Assembly (NCBI RefSeq): GCF_001311075.1
Contig: NZ_BBAD01000014.1
Coordinates: forward strand, 1 to 56,086
Direction of reading: 5' to 3'
Source: Secundilactobacillus similis DSM 23365 = JCM 2765
Lineage (GTDB): Bacteria > Bacillota > Bacilli > Lactobacillales > Lactobacillaceae
DNA: 56,086 nt
The position numbers and the translations under genes are program-made. Under the pieces are notes generated by a model. That model was not told the DNA's origin. It did no database searches and saw nothing but the letters and a program-made list of their open reading frames with translations. This document shows positions 14,731 to 43,761 of the stretch, one piece after another (positions within the stretch are counted from its first letter, which is position 1; every line of letters starts with the position of its first letter).

Positions 14731-14745
14731 GGAAGGTGACGGACG

Positions 14746-17068: not shown

Positions 17069-17093
17069 CAACGAGTGAGAAGGAGGGATTCTC

Positions 17094-17737: not shown

Positions 17738-17748
17738 GCGGTGAGTAG

Positions 17749-20036: not shown

Positions 20037-20041
20037 ACAAA

Positions 20042-21856: not shown

Positions 21857-21886
21857 ACACAAACAACTTAAAAGGATGATGATGAC

Positions 21887-23361: not shown

Positions 23362-23382
23362 GTGTGATGGAGGATGTTAAGT

Positions 23383-24805: not shown

Positions 24806-25568
24806 TTTCGGCACGACCTACAAACAAACGCGCCAAAAAACGATTGCCGCAACGGAACAGGCCTTTCAACGGGCTTTTCCAGAAGCGGACGTTTTTCGCG
24901 CCTTTACCTCTAAAATTGTGATTTCACGAATTCAGCAGCACGAAGGGGTGGTTGTGGCTACCCCGGCACAAGCGCTTGAAAAAATCCAAGCGGCTGGCTA
25001 CGATACGCTGTACGTCCAGTCGTTGCACCTGATTCCGGGTATCGAATACCACCAACTCTTGCAGCAGGTTCGCAAAGTGACGCCGGCATTTAAACAGGTG
25101 GTCATCGGCAAACCATTGCTAGAGACCTTTGAAGATTACCAACAAGTGGTCACCTTTTTAGAGCAGCTGCACCAACCATTGGATAAAAATGCGGCCGTGC
25201 TCTTCATGGGACATGGGACCGCGCATCATGCCTTTACTGCCTACGCCTGTTTAGATCACATGTTGCGAGGCACCCGGCACTACGTTGGGGCCGTTGAAAG
25301 CTACCCGGATATTGACTTGGAACTGGCGCGACTAAAGGCAAATGGCATCACTAAAGTGACGTTACAGCCGTTTATGTTGGTGGCCGGCAACCATGCCCAT
25401 CAAGACATGGCTTCGACTCAACCAGAGTCGTGGCGTTCAAAGTTAGAGGCGGCTGGTATCAAGGTGGCCAGTGACCTCACTGGGATGGGCGAGTATCCAG
25501 AGATTCAAAACCTATTCATTGCACACCTTAAACAACAACTCAATCAACAAGGGACGGTGACGGCATAA
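24777..25568 (+). CDS. cbiK: Anaerobic cobaltochelatase (sirohydrochlorin)
   Basis: Inserts Co2+ into sirohydrochlorin without ATP, marking the early-cobalt anaerobic route. 263 residues: ALLVVSFGTTYKQTRQKTI at the N-terminus, SLHLIPGIEYHQL with a metal-ligand His, FMGHGTAHHAFTAY, and PFMLVAGNHAHQDMA near the C-terminus. No signal peptide, so cytoplasmic. Overlaps hemD of the fusion gene and the cbiL start. Confidence 0.94.
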   Translation: MSRIALLVVSFGTTYKQTRQKTIAATEQAFQRAFPEADVFRAFTSKIVISRIQQHEGVVVATPAQALEKIQAAGYDTLYVQSLHLIPGIEYHQLLQQVRKVTPAFKQVVIGKPLLETFEDYQQVVTFLEQLHQPLDKNAAVLFMGHGTAHHAFTAYACLDHMLRGTRHYVGAVESYPDIDLELARLKANGITKVTLQPFMLVAGNHAHQDMASTQPESWRSKLEAAGIKVASDLTGMGEYPEIQNLFIAHLKQQLNQQGTVTA

Positions 25569-26278
25569 TGGCAACGTTTTATGGTATCGGGGTAGGGCCA
25601 GGCGACAGTGATTTATTAACACTCAAGGCAGTCAACACGCTACAGGCGTTAGACATTTTATACGTGCCTCAAGCCCATAAGGGACAGGCAAGCGTGGCGG
25701 AACGAATCGCAATGCCACACTTACCCGCAACCTTAGTGGTGAAACGTCGGCATTTTCCAATGGTCAAAGACCTGACAGAAAAGCAGCAAAGTTGGCGTGA
25801 AATTGCGACTGAAATTGTTGCTGACGTTCAGGATGGCAAAAACGTTGGCTTTGTGACGTTAGGCGATCCAAGCGTTTACAGCACTTACAGTTACCTCGTA
25901 GAACTGATCGACCATCAAATCGACGTTCAAACGATTGCGGGGATCTCGGCGTTTTCACAGATTGCTGCCAGTATCTCCGTTCCGCTGACGTTGGATGACG
26001 AATTGCTGGAAGTGTTACCGGCAACCGCAGACCTCACCACGATTGAAAAGGCCATCGACGTCAACGATAACGTGGTCATCATGAAGATTTCGGCGAACTT
26101 CCCGGCGATTTACGACTTGTTGGCACAACGCGACCTGTTGCAACACGCCATTTTGATTTCAAATGCGTCGATGGACCAACAGACCAAGCGAACGCTAGCT
26201 GACATCGCGCCGACGGAGAAGTTACCGTATTTCTCAACCCTATTATTGAAGAAACGGGTGCAGTTTGCGACTGAATAG
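25568..26278 (+). CDS. cbiL: Cobalt-factor II/precorrin-2 C20-methyltransferase
   Basis: 236 residues: FYGIGVGPGDSDLLTLKAV, DILYVPQAHKG, GFVTLGDPSVYSTYSYLV and QTIAGISAFSQIAA are CbiL/CobI motifs. It accepts the CbiK product. Its ATG overlaps the cbiK stop by one base. This ends the first tightly packed gene block; a 245-base gap follows. Confidence 0.94.
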   Translation: MATFYGIGVGPGDSDLLTLKAVNTLQALDILYVPQAHKGQASVAERIAMPHLPATLVVKRRHFPMVKDLTEKQQSWREIATEIVADVQDGKNVGFVTLGDPSVYSTYSYLVELIDHQIDVQTIAGISAFSQIAASISVPLTLDDELLEVLPATADLTTIEKAIDVNDNVVIMKISANFPAIYDLLAQRDLLQHAILISNASMDQQTKRTLADIAPTEKLPYFSTLLLKKRVQFATE

Positions 26279-26523
26279 CGTGACTTCGTTTTGATATTTA
26301 AAGCGTTCTGGCGATGTGGCAGTGCCAAAATGGTGCAAAGCCACGTCAGTCGTTGTGTTATCGGTGATAAATCAAATTAATCAGGCAACGGTGACGTAAT
26401 GGACGCAACGTTTTCTAATCAACGTTTAATATGATATAAATAAAGTACGTGTCATTTCAGGTTAAGCTGGAAGTGATACGCTGGCGGGGCTTCGGTCGCC
26501 GTCGTATTTTGGGAGGGACTCAC
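26279..26523 (+). promoter_or_regulatory. Intra-operon gap with probable internal promoter
   Basis: The widest gap of the cob operon. It contains two AACGTTT boxes within 26407-26428 directly before an AT-rich -10-like TATGATATAAAT (26430-26441), then an imperfect leader hairpin (TACGCTGGCG..CGCCGTCGTA, ~26477-26506). In several related operons cbiMNQO cobalt-transport genes lie at this point; here there is no trace of them. Confidence 0.4.
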
Positions 26524-28035
26524 ATGGGTACACAATCGATCATGTTTCAGGGGACGGCGTCAGATTCCGGCAAGAGTTGGGTGGCTGCTGGCCTATGTCG
26601 AATTTTACATAACCGTGGCTTAAAGGTGGCGCCCTTTAAATCTCAGAATATGGCGTTAAATTCCTACATCACGAGTGACGGCAAGGAAATGGGCCGGGCC
26701 CAGGTTTTCCAAGCAGAAGCTGCCGGTATCGCACCAGATGTGCGGATGAACCCGCTGCTGTTGAAGCCCTCAACCGATCAGGATTCACAAGTCGTTTACA
26801 TGGGCAAGGTGCTCAGTAACATGAGTGCTGCAGCCTATCAGGACTACAAACCCCAGTTGAAGCAACAGATCTTTGAAACCTACCGTTCACTGGCTGATGA
26901 AAACGATGTGATGGTGCTTGAAGGCGCAGGCAGTCCAACGGAAATCAACTTGAACGAGCGCGACATCGTTAACATGGGGATGGCTGAAATTGCGGATGCA
27001 CCGGTGATCTTGGTGGCTGACATTGATAAGGGTGGCGTTTACGCCTCGATCTACGGGACGATTAAACTGTTACCCGAAGCTGACCAACGCCGGTTTAAGG
27101 GCATCATCATCAACAAATTCCGCGGTGATGCCACCTTATTGGAATCAGGCAACCGAATGATTGAAGAACTGACGGGCGTGCCAGTGATTGGCGTTGTGCC
27201 CATGACGGATGTTGACTTAGACGAGGAAGACAGTGTGGTCTTGGCTCGCAAATCCCGGACGAAGGATGCCACCAAAGCGTTGGACGTGGCCGTGCTGGCC
27301 CTCCAAAAGATTTCTAACTTTACTGATTTTCATAGTTTAGAGATTCAACCCGATGTGTCGGTCCGTTACGTGGTGCGACCAGAAGAGTTGGGCCACCCAG
27401 ACTTATTGATTTTGCCGGGTAGTAAAAATACCAATCAGGATATGGCCGCCCTGCGTGAACAGGGCTTTGTGCCATTGATCCAACAACTGCATGCCGATGG
27501 CACCCAAATTATCGGCATCTGCGGTGGTTACCAAATGCTAGGCACCCAGATGTTTGATCCCAACCACGTGGAGTCTGATCTGTCGCAGCAAGCCGGCTTT
27601 GGCTTACTGGATACGACCACTACCTTTACAGGTGAGAAGACGACGACCCAAGCCGTTGCCCGACATCACGATATCGAACTTCACGGTTACGAGATCCACA
27701 TGGGCGAAACGGTGCTGGGACCGACAGCCAAACCATTTTCAACGATTATCGAAAATAACGGTCGACCTGTTGATCGCCCAGACGGGGCCGTTGACGCTAC
27801 TGGTCGGGTGTGGGGGACTTACCTCCATGGTATTTTTGACAACACCGCTTGGACTCGTCAGTTGCTCGACCAACTACGGCAAGCGAAGGGGTTACCGGTG
27901 TTGCACCAGAGTAGTCCCGCAATGGCGGCCTACAAAGAAGCCCAGTATGAGAAACTCGCTAAGGTGATCGAAGCCAACGTTGATATGGCGAAACTTGATC
28001 AAATCTTGGCCGATTCAGCTAAAGGAGATGCGTAA
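26524..28035 (+). CDS. cbiP: Adenosylcobyric acid synthase
   Basis: Amidates side chains b, d, e and g. 503 residues. N-terminal P-loop-like domain GTASDSGKSWVAAGLCR, FKSQNMALNSYIT, EGAGSPTEINL, ADIDKGGVYASIYGT. C-terminal glutamine amidotransferase with nucleophile Cys in IIGICGGYQMLG and His in GTYLHGIFDN. ATG 26524 behind GGGAGGGACT. It follows the gap that may hold an internal promoter. Confidence 0.95.
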   Translation: MGTQSIMFQGTASDSGKSWVAAGLCRILHNRGLKVAPFKSQNMALNSYITSDGKEMGRAQVFQAEAAGIAPDVRMNPLLLKPSTDQDSQVVYMGKVLSNMSAAAYQDYKPQLKQQIFETYRSLADENDVMVLEGAGSPTEINLNERDIVNMGMAEIADAPVILVADIDKGGVYASIYGTIKLLPEADQRRFKGIIINKFRGDATLLESGNRMIEELTGVPVIGVVPMTDVDLDEEDSVVLARKSRTKDATKALDVAVLALQKISNFTDFHSLEIQPDVSVRYVVRPEELGHPDLLILPGSKNTNQDMAALREQGFVPLIQQLHADGTQIIGICGGYQMLGTQMFDPNHVESDLSQQAGFGLLDTTTTFTGEKTTTQAVARHHDIELHGYEIHMGETVLGPTAKPFSTIIENNGRPVDRPDGAVDATGRVWGTYLHGIFDNTAWTRQLLDQLRQAKGLPVLHQSSPAMAAYKEAQYEKLAKVIEANVDMAKLDQILADSAKGDA

Positions 28036-28036
28036 C

Positions 28037-28501
28037 GTGAAACACCCATACCCAATCAACATCGACCTGAGTCGAAAAGCGGTCGCCGTTGTGGGCGGTG
28101 GTGCCGTTGCAACGCGAAAGATTCGGGCACTATTGGATGCCGCAGCCAACGTGACGGTGATCAGTCCGGTATTAGCGCCGGAAATCGACACGAGCCAGGT
28201 GACTTGGCGACAAAAACGTTATGAAACTGGCGACATCCAGGCGATGGATATGATCATTGCCTGTACGGATGACGCCGCCGTGAACGCCCAGATCACGCAG
28301 GACGCCACGCATTTTCAACTGGTGAATAACGCTAGCGATAAGACCCAGTCAGACTTTTTTAACGTGGCGAAGCTTGAAGATGAGACGTTACTGTTAACGG
28401 TCTCGACAAAGGGCAAGTCGCCAGCAACGGCGAAACGCATCAAACAAACACTCCGGCGCTGGTTGGACGATCAGCACTGGTTTAAAGGGGAGGATCAGTA
28501 A
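28037..28501 (+). CDS. Precorrin-2 dehydrogenase (Met8/CysG N-terminal type)
   Basis: 154 residues: HPYPINIDLSRKAVAVVGGG, the NAD-binding GGGAVATRKIRALL, VISPVLAPEI, IIACTDDAAVN, VNNASDKTQSDFFN and STKGKSPATAKRIK. It oxidises precorrin-2 to sirohydrochlorin, the substrate of CbiK; the chelatase part of larger homologues is absent. GTG 28037 with AAAGGAGATG upstream; it follows the cbiP stop by one base. Confidence 0.9.
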   Translation: MKHPYPINIDLSRKAVAVVGGGAVATRKIRALLDAAANVTVISPVLAPEIDTSQVTWRQKRYETGDIQAMDMIIACTDDAAVNAQITQDATHFQLVNNASDKTQSDFFNVAKLEDETLLLTVSTKGKSPATAKRIKQTLRRWLDDQHWFKGEDQ

Positions 28502-28504
28502 ACC

Positions 28505-29796
28505 ATGTTTGTCATTTACGTGAGTTTAAATTATCAGCAATTACCAATTGATATTCGCGAACAGCTGGTCTTTGCCAAGGAGGACCTGGACAAGGCCAAC
28601 CAACTGCTAAATAGCGAAAAAAGTATCTTAGAAAACGTGATTTTATCGACCTGCAACCGGACGGAAATTTACGCCGTAGTCGATCAGATTCACACGGGCC
28701 GTTACTATGTGAAACGGTTTCTCGCCAACTGGTTTCACGTGACGATTGATCAAATGACTGAATGGTCCGTGATTGGCACCAAGGAAGACGCCGTCGCCCA
28801 CGTGATGCGGGTGGCGACAGGTTTGGAATCACTGATCGTTGGTGAACCGCAAATCTTGGGTCAGTTAAAGAACGCCTTCTTTACCGCCCAAAAGGATGGG
28901 ACGACCGGTGTGATTTTGGATCACCTCTTCCAAGAAACGATTGCCTTTTCAAAACGGATGCACACCGAATATCGGGTCAGCGAGTTGGCGAAAACGTCTG
29001 GTCAAACCGGGTTACACCAAATCAAGGTGCAACTCCAAAATCTGACTGGAAAACAACTTGTGATCGCCGGCATGGGCGATGTCGGGACTCACGTGCTGAA
29101 AAATGCCAGCACGATGGGCTTTGACCAGATCACCGTGTTGAACCGAACGGATGCGAAGGCGGCTCAGTTGGCGGCGGATTATGATGCAACCGTTCAGGCG
29201 GATGCGTGGTCGGATCTACCACGGCGGTCGCTGACGCCGATGCAGTCATCTTATCGACAGCCGCTAAGGAACCGGTGCTTTCCGCACAGGCCCTTCAAAC
29301 GACGCGGCCTAAGTTAAAAGTGATGATCGACTTGGGAGTGCCGCGTAACGTTGATGCCCAGACGCTACCAGCTGACGTGACCTACTACGACATTGACCAC
29401 TTAACTGAAATCATCGCCCAGAACCAACAGACTAAGGATGCGATGATGGACGCGATTGCTGACAATGTGCCGGCGGCGGTGAACGACTTCTACGTTTGGC
29501 AACGTCAGCTTCACGTGGTGCCGGTCGTTCGTGAGTTGCGGGAGTCAGCGTTGAGCGTTGAAAAAAACGTCTATGACAGTTTGTTACGCAAATTGCCCGA
29601 GTTAGATGCCCATCAACGTAAGGTCATCAGCAAGCACATGAAGAGTATCATTAATCAGATGATCAAGGGCCCCATCAAGGAAATCAAGGAGTTGTCGGTT
29701 CGCGATGATGCCGCGCTAGATTTAGCCTTTTTCTGCCAAATCTTTGGCCTCGCAACGGATGACGTTTTACAGGAGGACAGTCACCATGAAAAATAA
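28505..29796 (+). CDS. hemA: Glutamyl-tRNA reductase, frame broken
   Basis: First step of the C5 pathway to 5-aminolevulinate; about 430 residues. Catalytic Cys50 in LSTCNRTEIYAV, then VGEPQILGQLKNAF, the NADPH domain IAGMGDVGTHVLKN and a C-terminal dimerisation helix (KHMKSIINQMIKGPIKEIKE). The frame breaks at ~29217 (GGATCTACC needs one base; resumes TAVADADAVILST). Its presence with hemL, hemB, hemC and hemD shows that precursor synthesis is built into the B12 operon. Confidence 0.93.
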
Positions 29797-30696
29797 GTTT
29801 ACCATGGGGACGCGCCGGAGCCAGTTGGCGCTGTGCCAAACGAACCTCGTGGTCGCCGCACTGCAGGCACAATTTCCCGATGTCGAGATTACGGTGAAGG
29901 AAATCGTGACGCAGGGTGACCGCAACCTCAAGGATAGCCTCCAAAAAATTGGTGGTAAGGGCGTTTTCGTCAAGGAAATCGAACACGATTTGCAGACAAA
30001 CGAAATTGACTTTGCGGTTCACAGCCTCAAGGATGTCATGCCAGTACTACCGGATGATTTGACGATTGGCTCGATTCCGAAGCGCAACTCGCCCTTTGAT
30101 TGTTTGATCACACCCAAGCCGGTTGCGAGTTTAGCGGATCTGCCGAAAGGCGCTCGCATCGGCACTAACAGCCTCCGCCGGCAAGGCCAGCTGCTACACG
30201 CTCGACCAGATATTGCCATTATTCCGATCCGGGGGAACGTTGGGACCCGGATCAACAAAATTGAGAGCGAGCACTTGGATGGCGTCGTGTTGGCTGAAGC
30301 CGGCCTTAACCGGTTGAACTTTGACCTGACTGGGTTGTACCGCATCAGTTTGAAGGACGTGATCTTACCCGCAACTGGCCAGGGTGCCATTGCCATCGAG
30401 TGTCGGAAAAACGATGCCGATACGCTGGCATTGCTACACAGTATTGAAGACGCCGCGACCCGAACTAGCGTTGTGGTGGAGCGCGATTTCCTGCGCGAAC
30501 TTGGCGGGAGTTGTACGTACCGATTGGGGCGTATGCTTACTTGGAAGCCGACACCCTGCATTTTCACGGGTTAGTTGCTTCAACCGATGGTCAACACCTG
30601 TTTACGAAGCATCAGACCGGAGTTGCCGGTGACCAGTTAGGCCGCAAAACCGCCCAAGCGTTGATTGCGGAAGGCGCGTTGAAATTCATTGAATAA
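29786..30696 (+). CDS. hemC: Hydroxymethylbilane synthase, frame broken
   Basis: Polymerises four porphobilinogens; about 303 residues. TMGTRRSQLALCQTNLV, GGKGVFVKEIEHDL, DFAVHSLKDVMP, RIGTNSLRRQGQLL, GNVGTRINK and the cofactor-binding Cys in LGGSCNVPIG. The break at ~30513 (TGTACGTACC needs one A) restores N-V-P-I-G-A-Y. ATG 29786 has AGGAGGAC just upstream and overlaps the hemA end by eleven bases. Confidence 0.93.
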
Positions 30697-30750
30697 TTCG
30701 CTATGCTGGAATTAACTTAAACTAAATGATTGAGAAAGAAGATTGTTATT

Positions 30751-31719
30751 ATGGTAAGTTTTGATCGTCACCGTCGTTTAAGAAGTAGTGCTGCTATGCG
30801 TGATCTTGTTCGCGAGACGCACTTAGCCAAGTCTGATTTGATCATGCCCGTGTTCGTGGACGCCACGATCACCGGTAAGGAAGCCATCGACTCCATGCCC
30901 GGGATCTACCGTTTCGGCTTGGATTCGATTTTGGATGAAATTAAGGAAATCGTGGACTTAGGCATTGAATCGATCATCATCTTCGGGATCCCCGACCACA
31001 AGGATGACCTCGGCACCGGTGCTTGGGAAGCGGACGGCATCGTGCAACAAGCCATTCGTAAAATCAAGGCCGCATACCCTGACCTAATCGTCATCGCCGA
31101 CACCTGCATGTGCGAATACACGTCAACCGGTCACTGTGGCATCGTCAAGGATCACGAAGTGTTGAACGACGAATCACTCAAATACAACACGAAGACGGCT
31201 GTCAGCCAAGTTGAAGCCGGTGCCGATATGGTTGCCCCTTCAAATGCCATGGACGGCTTCGTTGCTGCGATTCGGTCGGGCTTAGACGAAGCAGGTTACG
31301 AAAACACCCCAATCATGGCTTATTCAGTCAAGTACGCTTCTAGTTTCTACGGTCCATTCCGGGACGCTGCGGATGGCGCACCAACCTTTGGGGATCGCAA
31401 GGGTTATCAGATGGATCCTGCTAACCGGTTGGAAGCCCTCCGTGAAATGGCTAGTGATGAAGCAGAAGGTGCCGATTTCACGATGGTTAAGCCAGCGATG
31501 GCGTTTTCTGATATTATTAGAGATGTTCGGAACAATACCAACCTGCCATTGGTGGCCTACAACGTGTCTGGCGAATACGCCATGGTGAAGGCCGCCGCGC
31601 AAAACGGTTGGATCAACGAAGAACAGATCGTCAACGAAGTGCTGGTCGGCTTGAAGCGGGCTGGTGCGGACTTGATCATCACGTATTTTGCTAAAGAAGT
31701 CGCTGCTCGAATGAAGTAG
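30751..31719 (+). CDS. hemB: Porphobilinogen synthase (5-aminolevulinate dehydratase)
   Basis: 322 residues, intact. The three-Cys zinc motif [17 protein letters not shown], the Schiff-base lysines in [15 protein letters not shown] and [10 protein letters not shown] region, and [16 protein letters not shown] 30751 ([13 protein letters not shown]) is preferred to the TTG at 30730, although the ribosome site (AAAGAAG) is weak. Confidence 0.95.
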
Positions 31720-31739
31720 CCAAAGGGAGTGCTAATTTA

Positions 31740-33035
31740 ATGAAGCAGTTTGAAAATTCCAAGCGGGCTTTCGCTGAAGCCAGCGAATACATGCCGGGCG
31801 GGGTCAACAGTCCGGTTCGGGCTTTTAAGAACGTCGGTGGTGACCCACTGTTCATCGAACGGGGCAAGGGTGCCCACATCGAAGACATTGACCACAATGT
31901 GTTCATCGATTACGTGTTATCGTGGGGACCGTTAATTTTAGGTCACGCCGATGACCAAGTAGTGGCGGACCTCCAAGCCGCGACGGCAAAGGGGACCAGT
32001 TACGGCGCCCCAACCGAGCTTGAAACGGAACTCGCCAAAAAGATCCAAAGCATCGTGCCATCAATGGAAATGATGCGGATGGTGTCTTCCGGGACTGAAG
32101 CCACGATGAGCGCGATTCGCTTAGCTCGGGGCTACACCCACCGGGAAAAAATCGTCAAATTCATCGGGAACTACCACGGCCACAGTGACTCACTGTTAGT
32201 CGATGCTGGGTCTGGGGTTGCGACGTTCAACATCAACACCTCACCAGGGGTGCCAAAGGACTTGGCTTACGATACGTTGACCGTGCCCTATAACGATGTT
32301 GAAGGCGTGAAGGCGGTTTTTGAAGCCAATGGTGACGATATCGCCTGTGCCATCGTGGAACCAATCGCCGGCAACATGGGCGTCATTCCGGGGACGCAGG
32401 AATTCCTGCAAACCTTGCGTGACGTAACCACAGCACACGGTAGCGTTTTGATTTTTGACGAAGTGATGTCTGGGTTCCGGGCAGCCTACCACGGTGCCCA
32501 AAGTCTCTACGGCATTACGCCTGACCTAACGACCTTAGGCAAGGTTGTTGGTGGCGGGTTACCAGTCGGGGTTTTCGGAGGTCGTCGTGACATCATGATG
32601 AACATTACGCCAGCCGGGAACGTTTACCACGCCGGTACTTTGTCTGGGAACCCACTGGCGATGACCGGTGGCTTGAGTACGTTAGCCCAGTTAAACGAGT
32701 CATTGTACGCTGAAATGAGTGCGAAAACGACCCGTTTAGTCGAAGGCATCAAACAAGCTGCTGACGCGCATAACGTGCCAGTCACGGTGCATCACGTTGG
32801 CACCATGTGGAGCTACTTCTTCAACGCCGGCCCAGTCAATAACTTTGATGACGTGCAGGCTAGCGATGTGGCGTACTTTGCGAAGTTCTACAAGCAATTA
32901 CTCCAACAAGGCATCTACACGGCACCATCACAATTTGAAACCAACTTCATGTCCAGCAAACACACGGACGACGACATTCAAGCCACGATCAACGGCTTTA
33001 ACGCCGCGTTTGATGCGGTCGAAAACGAGGACTAA
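31740..33035 (+). CDS. hemL: Glutamate-1-semialdehyde 2,1-aminomutase
   Basis: 431 residues, intact. [65 protein letters not shown] and the PLP lysine in [14 protein letters not shown]. It converts glutamate semialdehyde to 5-aminolevulinate. AAGGGAG ribosome site; two bases between its stop and cblS. Confidence 0.96.
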
Positions 33036-33037
33036 TA

Positions 33038-33778
33038 ATGACAACAACACAATTTCGCGACCTTTCATTAATACCGCTAACGGCAACCGAAGCGTTAGTG
33101 ATTGCTTGTGATAGCAGCGCCGGAATTGGGGAGAAGCAAGCGGACGTGGTAGCGATTGACCCAGCTATTACGGCCGCTTATTCTTTGCGGGTCCCCTTAC
33201 TGGAGCTCCTATGTTTTGGCGCAACCCCGGTCGCCATTACGGATACGATCGGTAACGAGTTACACCCAACTGGAGAACGAATTATCTCGGGTATCCGGAG
33301 CGAAATGCAGCGGGCGGGTTTGGCTGATTTACCGCTGAATGGCAGCACGGAAGACAACATGGCCACCCTAACTACCTCAATTGGCGTGACGGTGGTGGCG
33401 CGGATCGAAACGGCGAAGTTACCGGTAGTCGGTCGACACGAACTGGCTGTCTTTCAGATGGGAACGCCTTACGTTGCGGATCAAGTGGTGGCGCACCTCG
33501 ACAGTATTTTTAGTTATGACGCGGTTCGACAACTGGTCCAGCGTGATGACGTGGTGGACTTGCTGCCAGTTGGGTCAAAAGGGGTGGCAAACGAAACGGC
33601 GCAGATGGCGCAAACTCACGGTCTGAACGTTGAGGCCATCGTTGACTTGACCGATGAGGCGTTCACTCAATCAGCCGGACCGGCGACGGTGTTACTGGTC
33701 GGTGTGCGTGCGGACCAAGCAACCCAATTTCAAGCGGCGTATCCGGATTGGATTCGGGTAGCCACTTTGCGGAGGTAA
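33038..33778 (+). CDS. cblS: Alpha-ribazole kinase CblS-like (AIR synthetase/ThiL-related)
   Basis: 246 residues. IACDSSAGIGEKQADVVAI near the N-terminus and LLELLCFGATPVAITDTIGN resemble the ATP-binding core of the PurM/ThiL superfamily. The closest described function in B12 operons of Firmicutes is CblS, which phosphorylates alpha-ribazole to alpha-ribazole-phosphate for CobS. Place between hemL and cobU and a CblT-like gene at the operon head support this. No cobT is present, so activated lower ligand would come by salvage. Recognition rests on family memory and context. Confidence 0.75.
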   Translation: MTTTQFRDLSLIPLTATEALVIACDSSAGIGEKQADVVAIDPAITAAYSLRVPLLELLCFGATPVAITDTIGNELHPTGERIISGIRSEMQRAGLADLPLNGSTEDNMATLTTSIGVTVVARIETAKLPVVGRHELAVFQMGTPYVADQVVAHLDSIFSYDAVRQLVQRDDVVDLLPVGSKGVANETAQMAQTHGLNVEAIVDLTDEAFTQSAGPATVLLVGVRADQATQFQAAYPDWIRVATLRR

Positions 33779-33783
33779 TCAAG

Positions 33784-34377
33784 ATGACAGGACAGTTAAC
33801 CTTAGTGACCGGTGGTGCCAAGAGCGGTAAATCGGTCTTTGCAGAACAACGGTTGTCGGATGATGACCGAATCTGTTACATCGCTACTGGTGTGATGACG
33901 GCGCCAGACCCGGAGATGCAGCTTCGAATTAAGACGCACCAACAACGCCGCTCTGATAAGTGGACCACTGAGGAACGCTACGAAGATGTGGCCGGGTTTA
34001 TTCGGGCACACCAGTTTGACGGGTACTTGTTAGACGATGCGACCATGCTGATTACGAACCGCTTTTACCAAATGATGCTGGCGCAAGCTGACAAGCAGGG
34101 AAAGCCATTAGATGACGTGATCGAGCGGATGGGGCGTGATGAGATTGCCCAAGTTGGTGACGTGATCTTTAACGACTGGGACGAAATCGTAGCAGCGCTA
34201 CGCGAAACCGACCAATCGATGTTCATTGTGACCAACGAAGTGGGGCTGGGCATTGTGCCGGCAACCAAGCAGACACGTATTTTACGTGATTTATACGGGC
34301 AGGTTAATCAACGCCTCGCTCAAGCGGCCGACCACGTTTACTTTGTCATCAGTGGATTGCCACAAAAATTGAAATAG
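33784..34377 (+). CDS. cobU: Adenosylcobinamide kinase/guanylyltransferase
   Basis: 197 residues. P-loop VTGGAKSGKSVFAE, the guanylated-His region KTHQQRRSDKWTTEE, and IVTNEVGLGIVPATKQTRILRD, a CobU signature. It makes AdoCbi-GDP for CobS. ATG 33784 has GGAGG 15 bases upstream overlapping the cblS end. Confidence 0.94.
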   Translation: MTGQLTLVTGGAKSGKSVFAEQRLSDDDRICYIATGVMTAPDPEMQLRIKTHQQRRSDKWTTEERYEDVAGFIRAHQFDGYLLDDATMLITNRFYQMMLAQADKQGKPLDDVIERMGRDEIAQVGDVIFNDWDEIVAALRETDQSMFIVTNEVGLGIVPATKQTRILRDLYGQVNQRLAQAADHVYFVISGLPQKLK

Positions 34378-34391
34378 AAAGGTGTTTGATC

Positions 34392-35153
34392 ATGGGACAA
34401 GCGATGATTTTATTCACGCAATTTTTCACCCGGATCTCCGTCCCAATTGAGATTCCGGACGCAACGAATAAGTTTAAGCAAAATATTCAGTACTTTACCT
34501 TTTTTGGGTTCTTGGTAGGGTGCGTTGAAGCCGCTATTTTTTGGGTGTTTACCCTGATTTTTCCACTTTGGTTTGCCTGGATCCTGTACTGGATCACGGA
34601 TGGGCTGATCACGGGTGGCTTTCACTTGGATGCGCTGGCGGATACGGCGGATGGCTTGTATTCGTCTCGCGCACCGGAGAAGATGCGCGCCATTATGAAG
34701 GACAGTCGGTTAGGGACGATGGGCAGCTTGGGCCTGTTGTATTTTTACCTGATCGTCATCAGTTGTGGTATCATCATTGCGCCACAGTTGCCACTATGGC
34801 AGTTGGTGGGCTTAACGGCCGTGACCACGATGATGGCCAAGACCGGGATCGCCGTTTTGTTTTATAAGATGGTGTACAACGGCAGCGGTCCCAGCCTATC
34901 CAGTTTATGGGTCGGCGTGACTACTTGGCGGATCATTGTCGCCCAGATTTTTTCAATTATCGTGATTGGCGCTATTTTACAAATCCCGGGTTTGATCGCC
35001 TACGCCGTTGTGATGGTGCTGGCCTACTTTTACCGGCGGTTCCACATTCACCTGTTACACGGGTTCAGTGGGGATACGATCGGCGCTTACGGTGATTTAT
35101 CACAGGTCATTTTCTTACTGGTTTACGCTGGCTTAGCGGGAGTGATGTTGTAA
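34392..35153 (+). CDS. cobS: Adenosylcobinamide-GDP ribazoletransferase (cobalamin synthase)
   Basis: 253 residues, polytopic membrane protein. LITGGFHLDALADTADGL is the catalytic/metal motif, and DSRLGTMGSLGL and FHIHLLHGFSGDTIGAYGDLSQ are conserved. It joins AdoCbi-GDP and alpha-ribazole(-P). ATG 34392 behind AAAGGTG is preferred to TTG 34386. Its stop overlaps the cobC start. Confidence 0.94.
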   Translation: MGQAMILFTQFFTRISVPIEIPDATNKFKQNIQYFTFFGFLVGCVEAAIFWVFTLIFPLWFAWILYWITDGLITGGFHLDALADTADGLYSSRAPEKMRAIMKDSRLGTMGSLGLLYFYLIVISCGIIIAPQLPLWQLVGLTAVTTMMAKTGIAVLFYKMVYNGSGPSLSSLWVGVTTWRIIVAQIFSIIVIGAILQIPGLIAYAVVMVLAYFYRRFHIHLLHGFSGDTIGAYGDLSQVIFLLVYAGLAGVML

Positions 35154-35739
35154 TGCACCTATTAGTGACGCGTCATGGTGAAACGGCGCTTAATAAACAA
35201 AAGAAATTTTATGGGTCGTTAGATTGTCCGGTAGATGCGCTGGGCGAGTCGCAGGCGGCGCAGTTAGCTGAGAAATTAACGAATGTGCCAATTGATGTGA
35301 CGCTTCGAAGCGACATGCTACGGACGGCGCAAACGGCGGCCCCAATCATTGCCACCCACCCAACGACTGAGGTGCGCGTCGATGCCCGGTTAAATGAAAT
35401 GGGCTTTGGTAAGTGGGAAGGGTTGAATGCTGACGAAATCCAAGCCGCTTACCCGCAAGATTGGCAGACGTGGCTGGATCACCCGTTTGAGGCGTTTCCA
35501 ACGGGCGCTGAATCGTACCCGGTGTTTAAGACCCGGGTGTGGCGGCACTTGATGACTATCAAGAGCTCATTAATAGTGATTTAACAGTGTTACTGGTCGC
35601 CCACCTTGGCACGTTGCGGACGTGGCATCAACACTGGTTCCCAGATACGACTTACTGGGATCTGCATTTTGAGGCAGGGTGTTACTCGACCTATGAGGTG
35701 ACGGCGACCGAAGCGACGTTAACGGGATTAAATTTGTAA
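35153..35739 (+). CDS. cobC: Alpha-ribazole phosphatase, frame broken
   Basis: Histidine phosphatase family, about 195 residues. Catalytic RHGET in LLVTRHGETALN, RSDMLRTAQTA, LNEMGFGKWEG and the second His in LLVAHLGTLRTW. The break at ~35540 (GTGTGGCGG needs one T) restores R-V-L-A-A-L-D-D-Y. It dephosphorylates alpha-ribazole-5'-P or adenosylcobalamin-5'-P. Confidence 0.9.
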
Positions 35740-35755
35740 GAAAGCTGGTGATTGG

Positions 35756-36472
35756 ATGGGGTTTCTAGTGACATATCCGCAAGAAAAGGTGGCACCGGAC
35801 CTGCAGGCACAGTTAGCGGCAATGGGGCCAACGCAGTATCTGCCGTTACGCCATTTGACGTCAGTGACGCTGACGGCGCCGGATGAGCACTTAATTGCAA
35901 CCAGTGACGTGCTCGTTCTGACCAGTCCGTTTGCACTCACGGTGTATCTTGGCCACTTACGAAACTTAGCGCCACAGGCAACCGTTGCGGTTTTGAGCCA
36001 GAAAATGGCCACTAAGTTAACGAACGCGGGCGTGCAGCGACTCGTCGTAGCGCCGCAAGAAAATCAGGCCAGTTTACAACGCGTGCTCCAAGACTATCCG
36101 GGGGGCACGATCATGACGTGGCTCCGGGGCAATTTAACGGTGGCCCACGCCATGGATCAGCTCCCAAAATTGCAAATGGTACAGGTGTATCAAAATACCT
36201 GGTCGAAGGCACAAACGCAACTTGTTGCCGACCAACTGGCCGCCCCAATTACCAGAATTTTAGTCACCAGTCCCGCTAGTTTTCAGCGCTTGCAACAAGT
36301 TATACAACTAGTTCCGGCGAAATTTGGTCAAATTACCTACTATGTTTTAGGAAAAAGTACCCTGGAAATAATCCGTGATACGCACCAATCAGTGATTGGA
36401 CCGACCCAAATGAAAGCGGTTTTAAGGCAGATGCTCCAGAAAATGTGCCGTGATGAAGCTGAATCGCGGTAA
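35756..36472 (+). CDS. hemD: Uroporphyrinogen-III synthase, stand-alone
   Basis: 238 residues with the weakly conserved two-lobed HemD pattern: FLVTYPQEKVAPDLQAQL, VLVLTSPFALTVYLGHL, VAVLSQKMATKLTNAG and RILVTSPASFQRLQQ. It is the last gene of the cob operon. A second HemD-type domain is fused to CobA in the same operon, so one may be redundant or altered. ATG 35756; a usable but weak ribosome site. Confidence 0.8.
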   Translation: MGFLVTYPQEKVAPDLQAQLAAMGPTQYLPLRHLTSVTLTAPDEHLIATSDVLVLTSPFALTVYLGHLRNLAPQATVAVLSQKMATKLTNAGVQRLVVAPQENQASLQRVLQDYPGGTIMTWLRGNLTVAHAMDQLPKLQMVQVYQNTWSKAQTQLVADQLAAPITRILVTSPASFQRLQQVIQLVPAKFGQITYYVLGKSTLEIIRDTHQSVIGPTQMKAVLRQMLQKMCRDEAESR

Positions 36473-37342: not shown

Positions 37343-37370
37343 CACCACCCACTTGTTGGGTGGTGTTTTT
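37343..37370 (+). terminator. Terminator of pduF
   Basis: CACCACCCA (37343-37351) pairs with TGGGTGGTG (37357-37365), followed by T5. Family A repeat A3 starts seven bases later. Confidence 0.85.
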
Positions 37371-37375
37371 GTGTG

Positions 37376-38146: not shown

Positions 38147-38149
38147 CAC

Positions 38150-38182
38150 AAAAAACGCCACCCGCAAGCATGCAGGTGACGC
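38150..38182 (-). terminator. Terminator of pocR
   Basis: On the minus strand GCGTCACCTGC pairs with GCGGGTGGCG, followed by TTTTTTG. It lies about 40 bases past the pocR stop codon. Confidence 0.8.
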
Positions 38183-38221: not shown

Positions 38222-39340
38222 CTAGTTTGGATTGGTCATGTAGGCGGTGTAGATCCACTGCACAACGGATTTGCCTTTCACGCTGACGGCGCTAGACGGA
38301 ATCGTTGGTTGTTTGCAGTCGATGGTGTAGATCCAGCCACGGGCACCCGTGGAATCGGCGAGGTTATCGATGTTGTTGATGTAGGGATAGCCGTTGACCG
38401 GTTGTGAGAAGTAGCTGATGTGGTTCTTTTGGAAGAAGCGTTTGGACACATCAAAAACAGTATCAGTTTCCTTCCAGGTCATGTCCCGGTGAATTGTGTA
38501 GATTTTTTGAATCGATGTGTTTTGGTGTCGATATTCGGAAGGGGTCAACCCAGTCCGTTGCTTAAAGATCTTGGTAAAGTAGCTGGTTTGCGAAAAACCA
38601 ATTTGGTTAGCAATGTAGTTGACCGGTAACTTGGTCAACGCTAATTTTTCACTGGCAATCGCAATTTTACGGTTGTTAACGTAATCGATAAAGTTAACAT
38701 CGAGTACCTTTTTGAAGATTCGGCTGAGGTAAGAGGGCGACAAGAAGACTTCTTGGGCGACCTTGGACAGTGAAATTGTCCGACGAATGTTCTTTTCGAT
38801 ATATTGAATGGATGCTTCGATACTTTGATGCACCCCTTCACCGTCTTCAGAGAAGGCCGAGGGTTCCGTTGTGAACCGGTTCATATCGGTTTTGACGGGC
38901 GTGGTTACTAAGGACTTATCATCTGATGAAGCTGACCGTAAAAAGGTATCAAAGTAGCGAATCTTTGAAAGTTGCTCCATATCAAGAGCGTCCCAAACTG
39001 AGACAGTGATATTAAACTGTGGTTCCAAGAGCTGGTTGAAAATGTTTTCCAAGTAGCTACGAGATAGGTAGATCCGTTGTTGCGACACGTCGATTGAATT
39101 GCAGATCACGAATCCCCAGAGTCGATGCTCAATCGTGACCGGAAAAATGGCGTAAACTTTGAGTCCATCTAAGTCGATGTGTTGTTGGACTTCTTCGATC
39201 CCCGTGTATAAAGTCCCATCTTTTAGAAGTTGCTCATCTAGCGTGTAAAAAACGGTTTCGATTTGTGTAATCCCTGAAAAAGTATCCACCGCACCGGCGA
39301 GGGTTCGGTAGTCTTCCTGTTTCAATGGATAACTGATCAT
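38222..39340 (-). CDS. pocR: AraC-family regulator PocR with C-terminal transcobalamin/DUF4430-like domain
   Basis: 372 residues. N-terminal ~110 residues: sensory domain of the PocR type (LWGFVICNSIDVSQQRIYLS), thought to sense glycerol/propanediol-like compounds. Residues ~175-272: AraC double HTH (ISLSKVAQEVFLSPSYLSRIF and VNYIANQIGFSQTSYFTKIF, ending TPSEYR). Residues ~283-368: an extra domain with TVFDVSKRFFQ, YPYINNIDNL, RGWIYTIDCKQP and VQWIYTAYM, resembling DUF4430 and the beta domain of intrinsic factor/transcobalamin. No signal peptide. ATG behind GGAGGTAGCAAT. Divergent from pduA, it probably activates pdu and perhaps cob. Cobalamin binding is inference. Confidence 0.88.
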   Translation of the reverse strand: MISYPLKQEDYRTLAGAVDTFSGITQIETVFYTLDEQLLKDGTLYTGIEEVQQHIDLDGLKVYAIFPVTIEHRLWGFVICNSIDVSQQRIYLSRSYLENIFNQLLEPQFNITVSVWDALDMEQLSKIRYFDTFLRSASSDDKSLVTTPVKTDMNRFTTEPSAFSEDGEGVHQSIEASIQYIEKNIRRTISLSKVAQEVFLSPSYLSRIFKKVLDVNFIDYVNNRKIAIASEKLALTKLPVNYIANQIGFSQTSYFTKIFKQRTGLTPSEYRHQNTSIQKIYTIHRDMTWKETDTVFDVSKRFFQKNHISYFSQPVNGYPYINNIDNLADSTGARGWIYTIDCKQPTIPSSAVSVKGKSVVQWIYTAYMTNPN

Positions 39341-39664: not shown

Positions 39665-39958
39665 ATGGATCAAGAGGCTTTAGGATTAATCGAAACAAAG
39701 GGTCTCGTTGCTTCAATCGAAGCTGCGGATGCTATGGTCAAGGCTGCCAACGTTAACTTGGTAGGTCAAGAAAAGATTGGTCACGGATTGGTTACGGTTA
39801 TGGTACGTGGTGACGTTGGTGCCGTTAAGGCTGCCGTTGACGCAGGGGTACAAGCTGCTGAAAACATTGGCGAAGTTTTATCTAACTACGTTATCCCACG
39901 TCCACATACTGACGTTGAAAAGATTCTCCCAAATCCTGATAAGTTATCAGCGGAATAA
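39665..39958 (+). CDS. pduA: Microcompartment hexameric shell protein PduA
   Basis: 97 residues, one BMC domain: [70 protein letters not shown] precedes the ATG. Forms hexamer facets whose pores pass diol/glycerol. Nearly identical over the core to PduJ at 46.65 kb. First gene of the pdu operon. Confidence 0.96.
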
Positions 39959-40004: not shown

Positions 40005-40829
40005 ATGAGCAATAAAAATGACGCGTTAGTTGAGCAAGTGATGCGTGAGCTCCTCAAAAAGGGTATCTCGCTAGATGACAAAAATCAGTCTAAATCATCG
40101 GGAGGATTTAAAATGAATGATTTTTTAAACTCTACTAGTGTCGTCCCTGAATTCGTTGGCACCCGAGAAATCGGTGACACGATCGGGATGTGCATTCCTA
40201 GTGTTGACCCAATGTTGTTGGATCAATTACACATTTCAAAACGTTACTCAGTTATTGGTGTTCTAAGTTCTCGTACCGGTGCCGGTCCGCATATCATGGC
40301 GGTCGACGAAGCGGTTAAGGCAACGAACACCGAAGTTATTGACATCGAATTACCTCGTGATACTAAGGGTGGCGCTGGTCACGGTTCCCTTATCTTGATC
40401 GGTGGTTACGATCCTTCAGATGTCCGTTCAGCTATCAACGTTGCACTTGATAACTTGAGCAAGACATTTGGCGATGTTTACGGTTCCGATGCTGGTCACT
40501 TGGAACTTCAATTTACTGCCCGTGCTGCCGGTGCATGTCACATGGCATTCGGCGCACCAGAAGGTAAGGCTTACGGATTAATCTGTGGTGCACCTGCTGG
40601 TATTGGTGTAGTTATGGCGGATACAGCTCTTAAGACTGCTGGTGTTGACGTTCTTGCGTTTGGTTCTCCTGCCCATGGCACGAGTTTTTCAAACGAAGGT
40701 ATGGTTCACATTAGTGGTGATTCTGGCGCCGTACGTCAAGCTGTTATCGCTGGTCGTGAAGTCGGCTTGAAGTTGTTAGCCTCAATGGGCGAAACACCTA
40801 CAAACGATTTCCCATCATACATCAAGTAG
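40005..40829 (+). CDS. pduB: Microcompartment trimeric shell protein PduB
   Basis: 274 residues. A 36-residue N-terminal extension (MSNKNDALVEQVMRELLKKG, an amphipathic tag) precedes the tandem-BMC body (VGTREIGDTIGMCIPSVDPM..). An internal ATG at 40113 with GGAGGATTTAAA gives the short form PduB'. Known in Salmonella: both forms are made, and the extension ties the shell to the enzyme core. Confidence 0.95.
   Translation: MSNKNDALVEQVMRELLKKGISLDDKNQSKSSGGFKMNDFLNSTSVVPEFVGTREIGDTIGMCIPSVDPMLLDQLHISKRYSVIGVLSSRTGAGPHIMAVDEAVKATNTEVIDIELPRDTKGGAGHGSLILIGGYDPSDVRSAINVALDNLSKTFGDVYGSDAGHLELQFTARAAGACHMAFGAPEGKAYGLICGAPAGIGVVMADTALKTAGVDVLAFGSPAHGTSFSNEGMVHISGDSGAVRQAVIAGREVGLKLLASMGETPTNDFPSYIK
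40101..40115 (+). promoter_or_regulatory. Internal ribosome site for PduB'
   Basis: GGAGGATTTAAAATG inside pduB. The ATG at 40113 begins codon 37 of pduB and is in frame. Strength and spacing equal those of true gene starts here, as for PduB/PduB' of Salmonella. Confidence 0.8.
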
Positions 40830-40850: not shown

Positions 40851-42527
40851 TTGAAACGTCAAAAAAGATTTGAAAAATTAGAGCAACGCCCAGTTCACTT
40901 GGATGGTTTTGTTAAGAATTGGGACGCCGAAGGTTTAGTCGCAGAAAACGGTGTTAACGATCCAACACCAAGTATCAAGATTGAAAATGGTGTCGTTACT
41001 GAAATGGACGGCAAGACTGCCGATGAATTCGATTTAATCGATCAATACATTGCTAAGTACGGGGTTAACCTCGAAAAAGCTGAACAAGTGATCAACACCG
41101 ATTCATTGAAGATTGCTAACATGATGTGTGACCCTAACGTCTCACGTTCTGAAATCATCGAATTAACGACTGCGATGACCCCAGCCAAAGCCGCTGAAGT
41201 TATCAGCAAGTTGAACTTCGCTGAAGAAATCATGGCTGCTCAAAAGATGCGTCCACGTCGGACTCCTATGACGCAAGTGCACATCACAAACACTTTGGAT
41301 AACCCAGTTCTCTTGGCTGCCGATGCTGCCGAAGCTGCCCAACGTGGTGTTCCTGAACAAGAAACCACGCCAGCTATCGCACGTTTCGCACCAATGAACG
41401 CCATTGCCGTTATGGTCGGCGCTCAAACTGGTCGTCCTGGCGTTATCTCACAATGTTCTGTCGAAGAAGCATTGGAACTTTCAATGGGGATGCGTGGGTT
41501 TACCGCTTACGCCGAAACCATTTCCGTTTACGGGACTGACCGGGTCTTCACCGATGGTGATGATACGCCTTGGTCAAAAGGTTTCTTAGCTTCTTGCTAC
41601 GCTTCACGTGGGTTGAAGATGCGGTTCACTTCAGGTGCCGGTTCAGAAGTTATGATGGGTTACACGGAAGGTAAATCAATGCTTTACCTTGAAGCTCGTT
41701 GTATCTACATTACCAAGGCTTCTGGTGTTCAGGGTCTTCAAAACGGTGGTGTTAGTTGTATCGGGATGCCTGGTGCCGTTGTTGGCGGGATCAAAGAAGT
41801 CCTTGGTGAAAACTTACTATGTATGGCACTTGATCTAGAATGTGCTTCTGGTAACGACCAAGCCTTCTCTCACTCAGACATTCGTCGTACTGGCCGGATG
41901 ATTGGTCAATTCATCGCCGGGACCGACTACATTTCTTCTGGTTACGCTGCCGAAGAAAACATCGATAACACCTTCGCTGGTTCTAACATGGACGTTCTTG
42001 ATTACGATGATTACATTACGCTTGAACGTGATATGGCCGTTAACGGTGGTATCATGCCTCTTGAAGAAGAACAATCGATCAAGATCCGTAACAAAGCCGC
42101 TAAGGTTGTCCAAGCCGTATTTGAAGGCTTAGACTTACCAAAGATCACCGATGAAGAAGTCGAAGCTGCTACTTACGGTAGTGGATCAGTTGACATGCCA
42201 AAACGTGACCTTGTTCAAGATATGAAGGCTGCTCAAGGCTTGTTCGACCGCGACATCACTGTCATCGACATCGTCAAAGCATTGAACAACACTGAATACA
42301 AAGACGTTGCCGAATCTGTGCTTAAGTTAGCACAACAAAAGGTTACAGGTGACTACCTGCAAACTTCTGCTGTCTTTGAAGCTGGTTGGAAGTGTGTATC
42401 AGCCATCAACGATGCTAACGATTACGAAGGCCCAGGTACTGGTTACCGTGTATGGGAAGACGAAGACAAGTGGAACCGTTTGGAAAATGTTCCTTGGGCT
42501 TTGGATCCTCAAAAATTGGAATTCTAA
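40851..42527 (+). CDS. pduC: Glycerol/propanediol dehydratase large subunit
   Basis: 558 residues, intact. Coenzyme-B12-dependent dehydratase alpha subunit: RRTPMTQVHITNTLDNPVL, GYTEGKSMLYLEARCIY, QNGGVSCIGMPGAVVGGIKE and LECASGNDQAFSHSDIRRT carry substrate and cofactor contacts. It converts 1,2-propanediol to propanal or glycerol to 3-hydroxypropanal (reuterin). TTG start at 40851 behind AAGGAGGAAACACA. No own targeting tag; carried in by PduD. Confidence 0.96.
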   Translation: MKRQKRFEKLEQRPVHLDGFVKNWDAEGLVAENGVNDPTPSIKIENGVVTEMDGKTADEFDLIDQYIAKYGVNLEKAEQVINTDSLKIANMMCDPNVSRSEIIELTTAMTPAKAAEVISKLNFAEEIMAAQKMRPRRTPMTQVHITNTLDNPVLLAADAAEAAQRGVPEQETTPAIARFAPMNAIAVMVGAQTGRPGVISQCSVEEALELSMGMRGFTAYAETISVYGTDRVFTDGDDTPWSKGFLASCYASRGLKMRFTSGAGSEVMMGYTEGKSMLYLEARCIYITKASGVQGLQNGGVSCIGMPGAVVGGIKEVLGENLLCMALDLECASGNDQAFSHSDIRRTGRMIGQFIAGTDYISSGYAAEENIDNTFAGSNMDVLDYDDYITLERDMAVNGGIMPLEEEQSIKIRNKAAKVVQAVFEGLDLPKITDEEVEAATYGSGSVDMPKRDLVQDMKAAQGLFDRDITVIDIVKALNNTEYKDVAESVLKLAQQKVTGDYLQTSAVFEAGWKCVSAINDANDYEGPGTGYRVWEDEDKWNRLENVPWALDPQKLEF

Positions 42528-42555: not shown

Positions 42556-43230
42556 GTGACAGAAATCGATGAAACATTACTCAGAAATATCATCAAAGGT
42601 GTGTTAAGTGAGGTAAGTAGCCAAGATACCCCAATTAATTTTGGAGGTGAAGCTGCTCCTAAGGCTGGTGCCGACACACCAAACTCATTGGACTGGTTCA
42701 AACACGAAGGCGTTGCTAAGCCAGGCTTATCAAAGGACGAAGTTGTGATCGCGGTTGCCCCTGCATTTGCAGAAGTTTTGACCCAAACCATGACTAAGAT
42801 CCAACACAAGGATGTCTTGCGTCAAATCATTGCCGGGATCGAAGAAGAAGGTCTTAAAGCTCGGGTTGTTAAAGTTTACCGGACTTCAGACGTTTCCTTC
42901 TGTGCCGCAGAAGCCGACAAATTATCTGGTTCTGGAATTTCAGTTGCCGTTCAATCAAAAGGTACTGCAATCATTCACCAAAAGGACCAAGCACCTTTGA
43001 ACAACTTGGAACTGTTCCCACAAGCACCAGTTATTACGCTTGAAACTTACCGTGCTGTTGGTAAGAACGCTGCGCAATACGCTAAGGGCATGTCTCCTAA
43101 CCCAGTGCCAACGGTCAACGACCAAATGGCTCGTGTTGCATACCAAGCACTTTCTGCTTTGATGCACATTAAGGAAACGAAACAAGTAGTTCTTGGGAAA
43201 CCAGCTGAAGAAATTTCAGTAACCTTTTAA
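42556..43230 (+). CDS. pduD: Glycerol/propanediol dehydratase medium subunit
   Basis: 224 residues. The N-terminal encapsulation helix [20 protein letters not shown] is followed by a Gly/Ala-rich linker and the beta-subunit body ([35 protein letters not shown]). GTG 42556 behind AAAGGAGGTAAGC. The tag directs the dehydratase complex into the shell. Confidence 0.95.
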
Positions 43231-43248
43231 TTGAGGAGGATTTGAGAC

Positions 43249-43761
43249 ATGAGTGAAGTAGACGACTTAGTAGCTAAAATCGTGGGTCAGCTTCAAAGCG
43301 GTAACACTTCAAGTGCTACTACGGCTGCACCTGCCGCTTCTGGTAAGGAATTAGGTGGCGCTGACTACCCACTTTACCAAAAGCACCCAGATTTAATTAA
43401 GACTCCAACCGGCAAGAACGTTGACGAAATTACCATGAGCAACGTTGTTAACGGCAATATCACACCTAAGGATATGCGGATCACGCCAGATACGTTACGT
43501 TTGCAAGGTCAAATCGCAGCGAACGCCGGCCGTCCAGCTATCCAACGGAACTTCGAACGGGCTGCCGAATTAACCGGTATTCCTGATGATCGGGTTCTTG
43601 AATTATACGAAGAATTACGGCCATTCCGTTCAACTAAGCAAGGCTTGTTGGATACGGCTGCTGAATTGAAGAACAAGTACAACGCACCTATCTGTGCTGG
43701 CTGGTTCGAAGAAGCTGCTACCAACTACGAAAAGAACAAGAAGTTAAAGGGTGACAACTAA
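43249..43761 (+). CDS. pduE: Glycerol/propanediol dehydratase small subunit
   Basis: 170 residues. Short N-terminal tag MSEVDDLVAKIVGQLQSG, Ala/Ser linker, then DYPLYQKHPDLIKTPTGK, AGRPAIQRNFERAAELTGIPDD and LELYEELRPFRSTKQ. GAGGAGGATTTGAG ribosome site. Confidence 0.95.
   Translation: MSEVDDLVAKIVGQLQSGNTSSATTAAPAASGKELGGADYPLYQKHPDLIKTPTGKNVDEITMSNVVNGNITPKDMRITPDTLRLQGQIAANAGRPAIQRNFERAAELTGIPDDRVLELYEELRPFRSTKQGLLDTAAELKNKYNAPICAGWFEEAATNYEKNKKLKGDN

Follow-up and report, generated by a model that had tools for sequence, protein, structure and literature searches.

To our knowledge, few protein sensors of B12 act directly on transcription, the light-dependent CarH type being the known example. 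In Listeria, the regulator PocR and AspocR, a cobalamin riboswitch-antisense RNA, integrate substrate and B12 at the pdu regulator (PMC8079631, PMC9943018; papers given by PMC number are represented here by excerpts). Rli55 is a B12-riboswitch RNA close to the Listeria eut operon (PMC8079631). A survey of antisense riboswitches names pocR of Listeria and Vagococcus, and the string "lactobacill" is absent from its main text (PMC9943018). In Limosilactobacillus reuteri, PocR (Lreu_1750) is an AraC-type protein of 359 aa that controls pdu and cob, as found by mutation and overexpression; in both this protein and its homologue in L. brevis, the C-terminus extends about 60 residues beyond that of Salmonella PocR (Santos et al. 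2011, PMC3162504). Post-transcriptional control of the riboswitch type has been suggested for cobalamin genes of L. reuteri and L. coryniformis in PMC6167548, the excerpt of which contains no B12 test of PocR.

Fusions of AraC with an SLBB domain of the transcobalamin-like clade were reported in Lactobacillus by Burroughs et al. in 2007, who proposed a one-component regulator whose signal would be B12, a precursor of it or some other soluble ligand (PMC1796856). The idea of B12 sensing by such a protein is thus not new and has been in print since 2007. The beta domain of transcobalamin and intrinsic factor belongs to the same Pfam family as exported bacterial DUF4430 proteins (PMC4350170). In rat transcobalamin, cobalamin makes its most favourable contact with the beta domain (PMC11107200). 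The human beta domain binds cobalamin when isolated and is little altered by it (PMC5599065), so that in principle a sensor could consist of a DUF4430 domain by itself. In the open-access literature, outside which most subscription papers lie, we found neither a link of PocR to DUF4430 or SLBB nor a report of a published test of an AraC-transcobalamin-like fusion.

Here we analyze a fusion of this kind in the window, the whole stretch of 56,086 nucleotides from Secundilactobacillus similis, and report its domain identity, distribution, neighbourhoods and conservation as well as the riboswitches observed upstream of exported-type relatives. Its architecture, bacterial group and proposed function are those of the 2007 fusion, as far as the excerpt describes it. 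That fusion was cited as one example without its gene neighbourhood, whereas the present one can be linked with PocR-like proteins, with pdu, cob/hem and ECF operons and with riboswitch-preceded exported relatives. Lreu_1750 was not identified among the loci analyzed here, and L. reuteri PocR is matched to the window regulator by description, length and family only; its C-terminal domain is unnamed in the excerpt of PMC3162504. While Listeria reads B12 with an RNA, we propose that the window regulator does so with protein. We assign a probability of roughly 0.58 to the reading, drawn from sequence comparison, that the C-terminal domain senses a corrinoid, whatever the sign of the response and with an inhibitory form included.

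Domain organization of the regulator

The regulator is encoded by an intact open reading frame with these features:

38222..39340, minus strand: PocR-like AraC-type regulator with a C-terminal DUF4430 domain, 372 aa (ORF with ATG start, Pfam)
38921..39340, minus strand: N-terminal domain, residues 1-140, rapidly evolving; presumed to serve in sensing or dimerization, and possibly a PocR sensory domain in degenerate form
38525..38758, minus strand: AraC-type helix-turn-helix (HTH) DNA-binding domain, HTH_18, residues 195-272 (Pfam E 3.7e-21)
38246..38464, minus strand: DUF4430 or transcobalamin beta-type domain, PF14478, residues 293-365 (Pfam E 2.2e-8; 34.9 bits, cut-off 23.8)
38381..38383, minus strand: Tyr320, aligned weakly (E 0.4) with transcobalamin Tyr362

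The initial annotation described the C-terminal extension as a DUF4430-type domain, and the PF14478 match, which begins about 20 residues after the HTH by Pfam borders, bears this out. When the C-terminal segments of 19 of the 46 fusions described below were aligned, all 19 matched PF14478 with E up to 0.01. Compared with a profile of 11 exported-type DUF4430 domains, theirs aligned over 81 columns in a single register (hhalign probability 98.3, E 2.2e-14). The further claim of likeness to transcobalamin and intrinsic factor stands at the level of the Pfam family but not in searches of solved structures. Transcobalamin was absent among the eight matches up to E 10 for one profile (A2) and among the four matches for the exported DUF4430 domain of locus L001, and two other profiles reached transcobalamin chains at non-significant values (E 1.1-1.2 for A6 and E 0.4 for A5). 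A kinship is nevertheless suggested by PF14478 together with the excerpts of PMC4350170 and PMC1796856. AlphaFold2 models from alignments of four sequences, the regulator and its relatives at L005-L007, were of low confidence, with mean pLDDT values of 32.1 for the full-length job and 41.6 for the C-terminal one.

Transcobalamin and the exported DUF4430 proteins are secreted, and the alpha domain of transcobalamin closes over the corrinoid. In contrast, the domain examined here is joined to an HTH and therefore presumably works in the cytoplasm, where the initial annotation had also placed it; no alpha-type domain like that of transcobalamin was recognised by Pfam in the regulator.

The name PocR, also given in the initial annotation, applies in part. 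The regulator has two features of canonical PocR, an AraC-type HTH and a position divergent from a pdu operon. However, it scores 100.1 bits against the PocR equivalog NF047788, below the curated cut-off of 500, and gave zero matches up to E 10 to the sensory domain PF10114, for which the regulator of locus L054 scores 132 bits. The N-terminal part showed no Pfam match above cut-off, DUF7676 alone appearing at E 0.13 and below its own cut-off, and its hhalign probability against canonical PocR N-termini is 54.8. We henceforth call the protein PocR-like. Its nearest named relatives are from Secundilactobacillus paracollinoides, S. silagincola and S. yichangensis at 77-80% identity.

Genes adjoining the regulator

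The regulator lies between a pdu operon and genes for corrinoid synthesis:

39665..39958, plus strand: microcompartment shell gene, PduA/EutM-like, first of the divergent pdu operon (EutM model 122.9 bits, cut-off 133)
40005..40829, plus strand: pduB
40851..42527, plus strand: large subunit of B12-dependent diol/glycerol dehydratase, PduC type
42556..43761, plus strand: medium and small dehydratase subunits
13202..36472, plus strand: cobalamin and haem-precursor biosynthesis stretch (eight ORFs scanned: CobD, CbiA/CobB type, CbiD, CobQ, HemA in part, HemB, HemL and CobU-like)

A GlpF-like gene and the cob/hem genes are on the side of the regulator away from the pdu operon.

Distribution of the fusion in Lactobacillaceae

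The spread of the fusion among relatives, a point raised by the initial annotation, was examined in 397 Lactobacillaceae genomes. Regulator matches with E below 1e-50 were taken, which gave 48 long ones. One is broken (G387), one has no DUF4430 in its open frame (G084), and the other 46 are intact with DUF4430 and spread over 34 of the 397 genomes. A B12-dependent dehydratase (PF02286) was found in 46 of 395 genomes, a sample that differs by two from the 397, and is encoded by 33 of the 34 fusion genomes, the exception being G155. The remaining 13 dehydratase genomes consist of G387, in which both the fusion and the dehydratase are broken, and 12 genomes without a fusion from genera g4, g20, g22, g24, g25 and g33. 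In the 20-kb regions around the dehydratase genes of these 12, nine have an AraC-type ORF without DUF4430 (one of only 170 aa), and no AraC-type ORF was seen in those of G360, G384 and G366. Small and apparently exported DUF4430 genes adjoin some pdu clusters with no fused regulator in the fetched neighbourhood (L044 13140-13535, L045 6356-6775, L046 13515-13940 and L048 near 12474-12716).

An origin of the fusion outside the lactobacilli was considered and rejected on the basis of 25 loci. A C-terminal profile run over samples of the phylum (398 genomes) and of the order (295 genomes) matched in 24 and 6 genomes, respectively, besides the window's own. From these 30 genomes 25 loci were inspected, and in each of them the matching frame was without a recognisable HTH. 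Even the strongest match beyond the family in the two samples fell short in E-value by about 34 orders of magnitude, and two scans of viral contigs returned no further relatives. The fusion is not a chance or local oddity.

By neighbourhood classes assigned by eye, 44 of the 46 fusions are near pdu, cob/hem or ECF-transporter operons, and the other two are at contig edges. The largest class is divergent from pduA/B (26/46), and six more are elsewhere at a pdu cluster. Six are at cob/hem genes, five of them adjoining and one (L073) within about six genes. Another six are at an ECF-transporter operon, and two of them (L087 and L088) are in addition next to where a pdu cluster ends. Five of the six ECF operons include a DUF4430 gene. 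By Pfam, two of these operons encode DUF4430, CbiQ, a double ABC ATPase and an ECF S component of the riboflavin-type family, and one has a CobC-like gene that scores 130 bits with the alpha-ribazole phosphatase model, under the cut-off of 163. The S-component family leaves the substrate of these operons unfixed, and a role in corrinoid uptake is our interpretation. Second copies of the regulator tend to go with corrinoid synthesis or, by this interpretation, uptake. Beside one ECF-DUF4430 operon is a PocR paralogue (L066 9291-10238; G084, contig 4, 440 kb) whose frame ends after the HTH without DUF4430, possibly a natural truncation.

These neighbourhoods bear on the sign of the response. A corrinoid-binding domain could be an inhibitor, turning the regulator off when B12 is plentiful and providing feedback on cob/hem and uptake genes, as sense-strand cobalamin riboswitches do elsewhere. 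The six fusions at cob/hem genes and the six at ECF operons are where feedback repression would be the usual logic. In addition, according to the excerpt of PMC3162504, B12 was produced in commercial B12-assay medium with glycerol by L. reuteri carrying an intact pocR but not by the mutant. The action of PocR on cob thus does not seem to depend strictly on supplied B12, although the cells are themselves producers of the vitamin. On the other hand, repression by the cofactor would be counterproductive at the 26 fusions divergent from pduA/B. Moreover, a CbiD match is present in 20 of the 34 fusion genomes but not in the other 14, which presumably import B12. Since the fusion occurs in genomes both with and without a CbiD match, feedback on synthesis is not the sole role of the domain. 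We regard inhibition as quite unlikely, and corrinoid as a co-activator is our tentative preference from these sequence data, at a little short of even odds.

Conservation of the DUF4430 domain

Among the 46 proteins, mean pairwise identity was 0.30 for the N-terminal domain (residues 8-140), 0.54 for the HTH and 0.46 for DUF4430. For 17 representatives below 60% identity the respective values were 0.255, 0.499 and 0.433, and in 135 of 136 pairs the identity was higher for DUF4430 than for the N-terminal domain. Six DUF4430 positions, I324, G335, W336, Q344, Q361 and W362, are invariant in the 46 proteins. Position 320 is Tyr in 41 of the 46 and Cys in five; its weakly aligned counterpart, transcobalamin Tyr362, is among the bulky beta-domain residues discussed for corrinoid binding in the excerpt of PMC4350170.

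It is conceivable that the domain has kept its fold and lost its ligand, and that it serves to stabilise a dimer, to position the HTH or to bind a partner protein, for example the dehydratase reactivase or the adenosyltransferase. Asp341 (42/46), Gln344 (46/46) and Gln361 (46/46) are conserved in the regulators and differ in the aligned exported-type domains, which could mean a new surface. Binding of non-B12 ligands was predicted for the superfamily, and a reviewer of the 2007 paper pressed this point (PMC1796856, excerpt). The conservation of DUF4430 above that of the N-terminal domain argues against a loss of ligand, as does the B12-related setting of every fusion except the two at contig edges. 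We consider loss of the ligand unlikely.

Cobalamin riboswitches and exported-type DUF4430 genes

As the initial annotation had stated, the window appears to be free of B12 riboswitches, since no match was found in it at the gathering score or at E up to 1. The same search found no AspocR-type antisense riboswitch at the 3' end of the window's pocR, where there is a dispersed repeat. The genome of the window has one cobalamin riboswitch match, at 31.6 bits against a gathering score of 31.5, and it is in a eut cluster (L071 9383-9524, contig 2). The order there is adenosyltransferase gene, riboswitch, alcohol dehydrogenase, EutA, EutB and EutC.

The family sample contained 30 cobalamin riboswitch matches, eight of them below the gathering score, and 29 were placed against genes, with that of G155 left out. 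Twelve of the 29 directly precede a DUF4430 gene with a product of 705-866 aa, in 10 genomes that all belong to genus g14. Two (g25) are upstream of ECF operons containing a DUF4430 gene and two (g33; L105 and L108) upstream of cob operons. In six further cases an alcohol dehydrogenase gene comes directly next (five) or second (one), in a eut-like order whose gene families were checked in L071 only. One precedes a nickel/cobalt transporter and one a set of unassigned genes with an ECF-type ATPase. Of the last five, two adjoin pocR (G123 and G170) and three are in eut-like places.

The 12 of 29 are independent evidence that the DUF4430 family serves cobalamin capture in these bacteria, drawn from one genus and from exported-type proteins rather than from the regulator itself. 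The genes concerned are at L106, L107, L109-L117 and L070, and the two that were scanned encode DUF5776, DUF4430 and a DUF1542-like stretch. They are followed by a gene for a protein of ~360 aa with no known function at 11 of the 12 loci and a second DUF4430 protein at five. These loci are perhaps an uncharacterised corrinoid-capture system.

The riboswitches also bear on the identity of the ligand. Something other than a complete corrinoid, such as a precursor, alpha-ribazole or an unrelated soluble molecule, is in line with the 2007 proposal, which lists precursors and another soluble ligand beside B12 (PMC1796856, excerpt), and with the below-cut-off CobC-like gene in a neighbouring ECF operon. 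However, riboswitches upstream of the exported-type relatives point to cobalamin itself, and the residue mapped to a corrinoid contact, albeit by a weak alignment, is kept in 41 of the 46 fusions. Such a ligand seems very improbable to us. The two sense riboswitches upstream of the g33 cob operons, none having been found at the cob operon of the window, are in keeping with inhibitory sensing, in which the regulator would take over the feedback.

Antisense riboswitches like AspocR of Listeria were found in the sample only in G123 and G170, whose regulators show no DUF4430. In these two of the three g33 genomes, the riboswitch runs antisense to pocR at a distance of 110-200 nt from the 3' end of the gene (L054 5527-5683 and L055 5668-5778, both on the plus strand). 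By profile, none of the three g33 regulators has DUF4430; PF10114 is present in the protein of G123, the one scanned. In contrast, no riboswitch was within 5 kb of the fused regulator in 34 genomes (33 with an intact fusion plus G387), and that of G155 is about 17 kb away from its fusion. At E up to 1, no cobalamin match was found in nine of the 12 fusion-free dehydratase loci (L044-L047 and L049-L053) or in three fusion loci (L056, L058 and L061). Riboswitches beside the regulator thus number 0/34 with the fusion versus 2/12 without it (Fisher p 0.064, with both positives from one genus and relatedness uncorrected), a contrast that is suggestive only. That the domain strictly replaces the riboswitch was not retained as an explanation; the direction of the contrast agrees with it, the count is non-significant and the positives represent one genus.

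A proposed model for corrinoid sensing by PocR-like regulators

The fusion is real, conserved and associated with B12 genes, and there is good circumstantial support for its sensing of corrinoid; the support for cobalamin binding by the domain, as supposed in the initial annotation, is likewise circumstantial. Points that count against corrinoid sensing as predicted here include the low-confidence structure models, the non-significant matches to solved transcobalamin structures, the B12 production by L. reuteri in B12-assay medium, the Cys in place of Tyr320 in five of the fusions, the L066 paralogue that does without DUF4430 next to an ECF-DUF4430 operon, the riboflavin-type family of the ECF S components, the origin of the riboswitch support in a single genus and in exported-type proteins, and the weakness of the contrast between fusion and riboswitch beside the regulator.

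We infer the ligand, the coupling and its sign as follows. The regulator would be the local PocR-like activator of pdu and probably also of the cob/hem genes. Its DUF4430 domain would be a cytoplasmic version of the beta domain used for B12 capture and would bind corrinoid inside the cell. Binding would alter the activity of the neighbouring HTH, most likely as co-activation, by stabilising a DNA-binding arrangement, and would form an AND gate with a substrate signal from the N-terminal domain. The dehydratase would then be made strongly only when its cofactor is present, and a protein domain would do here what AspocR does for Listeria PocR.

More broadly, a protein domain related to extracellular B12-capture proteins may be the cofactor sensor for pdu in many lactobacilli, the part played elsewhere by a riboswitch-antisense RNA, with duplicated regulators serving corrinoid synthesis and uptake. 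One and the same genome would then place ethanolamine use under the control of a B12-sensing RNA and propanediol use under that of a B12-sensing protein. We offer this wider picture as a possibility somewhat below evens. If PocR-like regulators do read B12, this would explain how food and gut lactobacilli match their output of reuterin and 1,3-propanediol to the supply of cofactor. It would also provide a compact corrinoid biosensor and an instance of the domain of animal B12 carriers being employed inside bacterial cells. L. reuteri pocR mutants exist, as described in the excerpt of PMC3162504.

Other features of the window

An element of ~0.8 kb (37358-38163), with inverted ends of ~40 bp that are 88% alike, separates pocR at its 3' end from the GlpF-like gene. 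It has 39 other long matches in its own genome, and the sequences that follow pocR in L005, L006, L007 and L068 are not significantly similar to it; it looks like a miniature transposable element. Three frames in the window are partial. The HemA frame (29206-29796) covers model positions 236-415 of 416, the PduG frame (44289-45407) positions 168-536 of 599 and the aldehyde dehydrogenase frame (49500-50387) positions 1-235 of 465. Some relatives have longer single frames, and the partial ones may be assembly errors or decay. At the start of the window (195-421, plus strand) is a match resembling a T-box leader, with 81.6 bits under an Rfam gathering score of 93.
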